Part shown: positions 26,900 to 43,441 of the stretch, in pieces
Position numbering within the stretch: the first letter of the stretch is position 1
How the letters are laid out: each line of letters begins with the position of its first letter
Source: Mesorhizobium sp. Root552
Lineage (GTDB): Bacteria > Pseudomonadota > Alphaproteobacteria > Rhizobiales > Rhizobiaceae
Assembly (NCBI RefSeq): GCF_001427285.1
Contig: NZ_LMFV01000011.1
Coordinates: forward strand, 1 to 64,000
DNA: 64,000 nucleotides
Reading direction: 5' to 3'
The notes under the pieces: generated by a model
What the model was told of the DNA's origin: nothing
The model's input: the letters and a program-made list of their open reading frames with translations, nothing else
The model's database searches: none
Made by a program: the position numbers and the translations under genes

Positions 26900-27300
26900 A
26901 AAATGCCAGCCGGCCTGTAAGCCGGGTTCTGTATGGCCTCCGCCCCTTGCGGCGCGGAAACGTGGCGGCCATTCATCTTGGACGCCTGTTGCCAGGCATC
27001 TCACGCAACCTACCCGGGCGGTGGGCGGGAAACAGCCCCCGAGGGTTTCCCCTCGCACCGCCCCTATTCGGTTTTGCTCCCGGTGGGGTTTACCATGCCG
27101 CTCCCGTTGCCGGTCGCGCGGTGGGCTCTTACCCCACCCTTTCACCCTTGCCACGAAGTTCGTGGCGGTCTGCTCTCTGTGGCACTTTCCCTGGGGTCGC
27201 CCCCGCCGGCCGTTAGCCGGCACCGTGTTTCCATGGAGCCCGGACTTTCCTCACCCGCAGCCTTTCGGCTCTCGCAGGTGCGGCCGCCCGGCCAGCTGGC
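26900..27300 (-). ncRNA. rnpB: RNase P RNA, bacterial type A
   Basis: This is the catalytic RNA that trims tRNA 5' leaders. On the minus strand it contains conserved core blocks: GAGGAAAGTCCGGGCTCCAT near the 5' side, then a GGGTGAAAGGGTGGGGTAAG segment, and the 3' ACAGAACCCGGCTTA. The P1 helix can be drawn between its ends: GCCAGCTGGCC (27290-27300) and GGCCGGCTGGC (26903-26913) pair with a single G-T wobble. A T-rich run follows the 3' end. Ends are approximate to a few bases. It lies between the PLP enzyme gene and the transglycosylase. Confidence 0.95.
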
Positions 27301-42164: not shown

Positions 42165-42285
42165 CACGATCGCGCCACAATTTATTCACAGTCGGGCCGA
42201 TGCCGTTTGCCAAGGAATTTCAACGCCTAACGCCAAAAGTAGGTCGAAAATTCCACATTTGCGTCGCAATGCAGCACATTTTCCG

Positions 42286-42314
42286 CTTGCCTGTGGCCGA
42301 AATGCTTCTAGATT
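42286..42314 (+). promoter_or_regulatory. Candidate promoter and dyad for the small peptide gene
   Basis: CTTGCC and TAGATT are 17 bases apart, near the rhizobial housekeeping consensus CTTGAC-N17-CTATAT. A dyad, TGGCCGAA (42294-42301) against TTCCGGCCA (42313-42321), spans the -10 region with one bulged base and could be an operator. The AT-rich stretch 42165-42285 holds no other feature. Confidence 0.5.
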
Positions 42315-42345
42315 CCGGCCATAGCTTTTCAAGAGGAGGCTATCC

Positions 42346-42432
42346 ATGGGACTGACGAGGCCAATCAACGCATTGATGATCTGCGCTGCATTCGCTTTTA
42401 TCGGCGCTCTTATCGTGGGCGTTCTTCCATAA
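42346..42432 (+). CDS. 28-residue hydrophobic peptide
   Basis: The frame reads MGLTRPINALMICAAFAF and continues to IGALIVGVLP, then TAA. A short N-terminus with one Arg precedes a single membrane-spanning segment. The ribosome site is excellent (AAGAGGAGG ending six bases before the ATG). A promoter-like site lies upstream and a strong terminator lies 45 bases downstream, so this looks like an autonomous small gene. It has no recognised family. A similar role to small regulatory inner-membrane peptides is only a guess. Confidence 0.7.
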   Translation: MGLTRPINALMICAAFAFIGALIVGVLP

Positions 42433-42477
42433 CCGCTTAAGCGGAGAAGGCTAGCACCTGACAAAGCAGAGAAGACG

Positions 42478-42506
42478 AAAAGGCCGGGATTTTCCCCGGC
42501 CTTTTT
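42478..42506. terminator. Bidirectional rho-independent terminator
   Basis: AAAAGGCCGGG pairs with CCCGGCCTTTT around a six-base loop and is followed by TTTTTG on the plus strand. On the minus strand the tail is TTTTCG. It can end both the small peptide transcript and the metF transcript. Confidence 0.88.
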
Positions 42507-42520
42507 GTTTCTGCTGCTCT

Positions 42521-43441
42521 CTAGGCCGCCGCTGAATTCGGGCTCGCCTCGGGCTTGTGCGAGCGGATGCCGATCATGTGGCAAACGGCAAAGGCAAGAT
42601 CGGCCCGGTTCATCGTGTAGAAGTGGAAATCCCCCACCCCGCGCTCGACCAGATCCAGCACTTGTTCGGCCGCGACGGCTGACGCCACCAGCGCATGCGT
42701 CTGCGGGTCCGATTCCAGCCCGTCGAACCGCTCCCTCAGCCAAACCGGCACATGGGCTCCGGCGCGCCCTGAAAAACTCGCCACCTGCGCGATGTTGTGG
42801 ACCGGCAGGATGCCCGGCACGATCGGGATATAGATGCCCGCGCGGCGCACGCGCTCGACGTAACGCTCATAGATATCGTTGTCGAAGAAGAACTGGGTGA
42901 TCGCCCGCGTCGCCCCATTGTCCACCTTGCGCTTCAGCATGTCGATGTCGGTGGCGAAGTCCGGGCTTTCAGGATGCTTCTCGGGATAGGCGGAAACAGA
43001 AATGTCGAAATCGCCGTGACGCTTGAGCGCGCCAACCATCTCCGCGCCGTTGGCGTAACCGTCCGGGTGCGGCTGGTAGCGCGTGCCGGCACCCGCTGCC
43101 GGATCGCCACGCAACGCCACGAAGCGCGTGATGCCGAGCGCAGCGAACTGCCGGATCACGTTGTCGGCCTCTTCCCTGCTTGCATCGATGCAGGTCAGGT
43201 GCGCCGCCGGGCTGAGCGACGTCTCGCCAAGGATGCGCGCCACTGTGCGCGCCGTCCGTTCGCGCGTGGAACCGCCGGCGCCATAGGTCACCGAAACGAA
43301 GTTCGGCCTCAGCGGCTCCAGCCGCTTCACCGTCTCCCAAAGCCGCGCTTCCATCTCGTCGGTCTTCGGCGGGAAAAACTCGAAGGAGACCCTTATCTTG
43401 TCGCCAATGTCGGGCCGGCGTGAAAAACGGAACTGGCTCAT
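42521..43441 (-). CDS. metF: Methylenetetrahydrofolate reductase MetF
   Basis: MetF uses FAD to reduce 5,10-methylene-THF to 5-methyl-THF for methionine synthesis. The 306-residue TIM-barrel protein shows SFEFFPPKTDEME, FVSVTYGAGGSTRERT, HLTCIDASREE, VALRGDPAAG, and AITQFFFDND, all typical of the family. It overlaps by one base the ArsR/methyltransferase regulator gene upstream, so both are in one operon. A terminator follows. Confidence 0.96.
   Translation of the reverse strand: MSQFRFSRRPDIGDKIRVSFEFFPPKTDEMEARLWETVKRLEPLRPNFVSVTYGAGGSTRERTARTVARILGETSLSPAAHLTCIDASREEADNVIRQFAALGITRFVALRGDPAAGAGTRYQPHPDGYANGAEMVGALKRHGDFDISVSAYPEKHPESPDFATDIDMLKRKVDNGATRAITQFFFDNDIYERYVERVRRAGIYIPIVPGILPVHNIAQVASFSGRAGAHVPVWLRERFDGLESDPQTHALVASAVAAEQVLDLVERGVGDFHFYTMNRADLAFAVCHMIGIRSHKPEASPNSAAA

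Follow-up and report, generated by a model that had tools for sequence, protein, structure and literature searches.

CydX and the other small oxidase subunits are each a single short helix, and CydX is encoded with cydAB. In Sinorhizobium meliloti, the peptide SEP6 is shorter than 30 amino acids, has a predicted transmembrane helix, is translated as judged by Ribo-seq and by Western blotting of a tagged form, is found in the pellet fraction, and is conserved in Hyphomicrobiales; the shortest open reading frame in the S. meliloti annotation of that study is 30 amino acids long (PMC10117765). The available passages of PMC10117765 give neither an operator nor a function for SEP6. In the same species, the motif of PhaR (AniA) is WNWD2NYGCRNYGCRNH2WNW, and the bound sites are collected in Table 3 of PMC12542648, with those of phaP1 and phaP2 near or flanking the -35 box. 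The table contains annotated genes and the small RNA mmgR, and the FIMO scan of that study covered upstream regions of annotated genes (PMC12542648).

We analyzed a 64,000-nucleotide stretch of Mesorhizobium sp. Root552 DNA (the window), in which a sequence-only reading had proposed an autonomous gene for a 28-residue membrane peptide (Table 1). Like the small oxidase subunits, the peptide has a single short helix, and an accessory-subunit role is suggested by that analogy; unlike them, it lacks a Pfam or NCBIfam match, and its neighbors, metF and a transporter-like gene, differ from the setting of CydX. The peptide resembles SEP6 in size, single helix, and conservation in Hyphomicrobiales. 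Four Sinorhizobium/Ensifer loci encode a 25-amino-acid member of the peptide family, and SEP6 may be an ortholog. If so, translation is already known in S. meliloti, and the order-wide family, metF adjacency, and PhaR-type operator are new relative to the available passages on SEP6. The PhaR regulon of S. meliloti shares with this locus the operator type and its place near the -35 box, and in the part of PMC12542648 available, no entry or site of Table 3 is assignable to a 25- to 28-amino-acid membrane peptide or its gene. Literature listings and the openings of abstracts, searched with N-terminal strings as well, contained no description of the gene besides the SEP6 candidate.

Table 1. Coordinates of the peptide locus and its convergent neighbor in the window
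Feature	Position	Strand	Evidence or remark
PhaR (AniA)-type operator-like site, core CGCAATGCA at 42265-42273	42259..42279	+	Matrix score 9.8
-35 region CTTGCCT	42286..42292	+	CTTG consensus 17-20 bases past operator-like site centre (60 genera)
-10 box TAGATT	42309..42314	+	TA.A.T consensus +40 to +45 from operator-like site centre (60 genera)
Shine-Dalgarno AAGAGGAGG	42331..42339	+	Sequence; GGAG/GAGG/AGGA core in 165/168 homologous loci
Single-pass membrane peptide gene, 28 codons (ATG at 42346, stop included), product MGLTRPINALMICAAFAFIGALIVGVLP	42346..42432	+	Homologs, pN/pS 0.077, charge and length pattern
Intrinsic terminator, stem with T run	42478..42507	+	Also usable by metF from the opposite strand
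metF, methylenetetrahydrofolate reductase, convergent neighbor	42521..43441	-	TIGR00676, 339.4 bits versus cut-off 293.7

Homologs were sought with a profile built from 61 peptides (match limits of 0.01 in the family, 0.01 in the order, and 0.001 in the class). The profile matched 127 of 151 family genomes, 121 of 297 in the order, and 2 of 289 in a sample of the class, one of the two being the window's own; its weakest rows (G050, G096, and G180) may be spurious. These profile counts are the ones quoted here, and single-query counts at E up to 10 take in unrelated weak matches (134/151 in the family). A search with the single peptide matched over residues 1 to 28 in all 25 same-genus genomes, its own included. 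The eight family genomes of 1.1 to 2.0 Mb had no match to the profile. Among the matches listed in a pattern scan of named genomes were Mesorhizobium, Aminobacter, Rhizobium, Sinorhizobium/Ensifer, Shinella, Ciceribacter, Phyllobacterium, Brucella/Ochrobactrum, Nitratireductor, Hoeflea, and others. Searched at E up to 10, Pfam, NCBIfam, and PDB gave no hit to the peptide, its only PHROGs matches stood at E 0.16 and 0.22, and blastn found no match on plasmids. By these searches, the gene is conserved in much of Hyphomicrobiales and lies outside Pfam and NCBIfam. Routine annotation of rhizobial and related genomes is likely to miss so short a protein, with its own promoter and without a match in either collection.

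Comparison of homologous loci at the codon and residue levels points to selection on the encoded protein. Across 46 loci (44 distinct sequences), pN was 0.045 and pS 0.575, giving a pN/pS of 0.077 (0.049 among close pairs), and differences were distributed over codon positions 1, 2, and 3 as 18%, 2%, and 80%. Of the other five frames, one reverse frame gave a ratio of 0.26 and the rest 1.4 to 11.8, and ungapped divergence was 0.18 in frame versus 0.66 in the 40 bases past the stop. Substitution without synonymous bias had been set beforehand as a test that could refute the frame; the bias found was strong, and the frame survives. Its expected conservation in relatives was also borne out: the start is ATG in 127 of 128 loci and in 34 of 40 more distant ones, and a Shine-Dalgarno core (GGAG, GAGG, or AGGA) is present in 165 of 168 loci versus 8.2% of random 15-mers. 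These 168 loci, with near-identical ones counted, comprise 125 from the family and 43 from elsewhere in the order. They encode peptides of 24 (1 locus), 25 (28), 27 (44), and 28 (95) residues, all without a charged residue past position 9; 155 have K, R, or H within residues 1 to 9. The single hydrophobic segment proposed for the window's peptide has a hydropathy of 2.76 over 18 residues from residue 10, and one membrane-length segment with few flanking charges is the pattern of a single-pass membrane protein. Among 129 of 135 distinct peptides (6 were dropped by the alignment rule), the most conserved residues included N8 (116), A14 (121), A15 (124), F16 (126), F18 (123), A21 (111), and G25 (108). 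The interval 42346-42432 is almost certainly a real protein gene: comparison across loci shows selection at the protein level, a kept start and predicted ribosome site and promoter, and, within the family, a kept place beside metF.

The unit around this frame is largely as the sequence-only reading described it. Both the frame and its ribosome site were recovered at their positions in the sequence, with six bases separating AAGAGGAGG from the ATG at 42346. The promoter-like site found support in comparison, since both boxes are kept across 60 genera aligned on the upstream site. In the window, TTGCCT and TAGATT are 16 bases apart. A generic sigma-70 scan left this promoter unflagged because it agrees with the consensus at 8 of 12 bases by manual count and the threshold was 9; the sole hit of the scan lay elsewhere, on the minus strand. 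The dyad reported over the -10 box exists in the window (TGGCCG/CGGCCA, 16 apart) but is without counterpart in the other 19 same-genus loci, where the best arms are 3 to 5 bases. We therefore rejected it as a functional element; it is probably a chance feature. Downstream, the predicted terminator was located as a stem with a T run from 42478. The terminator scan assigns this hairpin to the minus strand, and metF can therefore use it too. Of the 128 loci, 63 have a terminator-like hairpin within 200 bases past the stop, as do 17 of 40 in another set, versus 27 of 640 random segments. In a separate Rfam search, the window's sole match was a bacterial class A RNase P RNA (26902-27299, minus strand), and no RNA was named at the peptide locus.

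A MetF-like gene is convergent with the peptide gene in 121 of 128 loci; the remaining seven comprise two that end within 260 bases, two that represent a single genus, and three belonging to other families. On the minus strand, the gene after metF matches an ArsR-family model above its cut-off. The peptide gene is preceded by a transporter-like gene, and before that lies a PLP-decarboxylase-like gene, both matches being below cut-offs. Neighbors differ in the more distant families of the order, and no functional or operon partner was apparent near 40 order-level and 10 other loci when BLAST groupings were read by eye. With its own promoter and terminator, a convergent MetF, and no convincingly recurring same-strand partner, the gene therefore looks autonomous, as the sequence-only reading had proposed, and its neighbors say little about its function.

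Upstream of the -35 box, where the unit of the sequence-only reading begins, lies a PhaR-type site at 42259-42279, which that reading missed. The upstream regions listed for homologous loci have a palindrome in common. We scored sites with a matrix from the 17 "Efficient" S. meliloti PhaR sites in the available Table 3 of PMC12542648. The window site scored 9.8, a moderate value below all 17 training sites (15.7 to 27.9); in two runs of 100 shuffles each, 0 and 1 shuffled sequences attained that score. Among 128 scanned loci (125 from the family and 3 others), 97 (95/125 in the family) had a score of at least 8 centred 66 to 92 bases before the ATG, versus a background of 0.14%, with these 97 centres falling 71 to 82 bases upstream; the palindrome core occupied the same place in 104 of 128, versus 2.7%. 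Counted by genus, the site was present in 66 of 83 (64/80 within the family); 14 of the 17 genera without it at the usual place were counted as PhaR-bearing. Spacing to the promoter was fixed, with CTTG at 17 to 20 and TA.A.T at 40 to 45 bases past the site centre in an alignment of one locus for each of 60 genera, picked for having the site. The order's other families contributed 40 further loci; 26 have a score of at least 8 within 250 bases, and in 19 of these the centre is at 70 to 105 (background, 1.35%). In smaller sets, 18 of 32 named loci and 6 of 12 further ones had their best site at the usual place with a score of at least 8; the five Brucella/Ochrobactrum loci and the four Phyllobacterium loci examined were all among those without it. 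Five loci (L072, L096, L103, L133, and L134) have high-scoring PhaR-type sites 167 to 188 bases before the ATG versus about 77, and the operator may have moved in some lineages.

The window's genome encodes PhaR (G000 versus PF07879, 9.7e-30) and a PHB synthase. As a positive control, two of its three phasin-like genes have two PhaR-type sites each upstream of the match (15.2 to 22.4), and the third has no site of at least 10. The upstream palindrome is likely a PhaR operator by its sequence and placement, and we consider control by repression reasonably probable as compared with activation. The peptide gene is probably a PhaR target expressed on PHB accumulation.

Four family genomes with the peptide matched neither PhaR nor PHB synthase and lack the site as well. 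Since the peptide is kept where both are undetectable, its job is not PHB itself, and PHB would do no more than cue its expression. Joint loss of PhaR and the site was considered as evidence (Fisher p 0.026 by genus and 0.003 by locus, with same-genus loci taken as PhaR-bearing and PhaR searched in 4 of those 20 genomes) and rejected, the association being lost on the tree. Two counter-examples, G071 and G391, have the site and PHB synthase without a PhaR match, possibly through an assembly gap. On a MetF tree of 101 rows, in which the G071 locus (L030) was scored as PhaR-bearing, the other four PhaR-less rows form one clade whose PhaR-bearing neighbors (g80 and g67) are also siteless; the site was therefore lost before PhaR. 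PhaR loss is a single event on this tree, and the sole independent pair shows no site difference. The site changes state 9 times, and every row keeps the peptide. Co-occurrence of peptide and PhaR was likewise set aside: PhaR was found in 119 of 121 genomes with the peptide versus 129 of 176 without it in the order, and in 120 of 127 versus 14 of 24 in the family (read by eye from hit lists and Fisher tested), counts confounded by genome reduction and descent.

Taking these comparisons together, we favor, with moderate confidence, a reading in which this is an autonomous, PhaR-controlled gene for a single-pass inner-membrane peptide of 25 to 28 residues that would tune a larger membrane protein. 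PhaR (AniA) would bind the palindrome just upstream of the -35 box and repress the promoter; PHB granules would titrate PhaR away, and the peptide would be made during carbon storage, as with phasins. The short N terminus, usually with one Arg or Lys, would stay cytoplasmic while the helix spans the inner membrane, and the near-invariant A14-A15-F16-x-F18 core would dock on the larger protein and tune its activity or stability. The one computed test of such a docking face was negative, since 3407 of 5000 permutations gave a helical periodicity of conservation as high as the real one, and we give about an even chance that the peptide serves a larger membrane protein as accessory or modulator. 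A more specific proposal, which we hold tentatively and think somewhat unlikely, is an undescribed micro-regulator: as PHB titrates PhaR, the peptide would adjust an enzyme or a transporter in the membrane and thereby link the storage of carbon with uptake or membrane energetics, with some lineages having dropped the switch, one clade PHB, and the peptide kept. The operator-like site connects an uncharacterized membrane peptide with the control of carbon storage in symbionts and offers a cue to when the peptide would be made.

The very even peptide length and conserved core would also suit a structural subunit made constitutively for a membrane complex, similar to CydX, with the upstream box belonging to another factor or to the promoter. 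Retention of the peptide in the four genomes without detected PhaR or PHB synthase, and in every row of the tree despite the changes of site state, agrees with such a subunit. We nevertheless consider it unlikely, given that the box fits experimentally bound PhaR sites, recurs at phasin genes of the same genome, and keeps a fixed spacing to the -35 box. It is very improbable that the transcript is instead a regulatory RNA, with the frame incidental or secondary: selection acts on the amino acids, the region past the stop is divergent, and RNase P is the only Rfam match in the window. What recommends an RNA is the short, terminated transcription unit beneath a PhaR-type site, the arrangement of a PhaR-repressed small RNA such as MmgR, itself listed as a PhaR target in the available part of PMC12542648. 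In size and single helix, the peptide also resembles the hydrophobic toxins of type I toxin-antitoxin pairs. TisB and Ibs are examples of such small single-helix toxins, which are usually patchy in distribution and repeated. The peptide, by contrast, is matched just once in 120 of the 127 family genomes with a match, its place is conserved, its ribosome site is well kept, and Rfam names no RNA at the locus; a toxin is likewise very improbable. Both the RNA and the toxin fit the selection and distribution poorly.

In a 1.5-Mb genome outside the order, a Rhizobium-type peptide ending in GAAFAFIAAMLFI is encoded (L291, G658:C2:727648-727716) with a ribosome site and without a PhaR-type site; transfer, misplacement, or contamination could account for it. 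On a contig filed as a Ferrovibrio MAG (L172, 1799-1857), the peptide is identical to the one in Rhizobium cremeum and Ciceribacter records; this is probably a misbinned Rhizobium-type contig.
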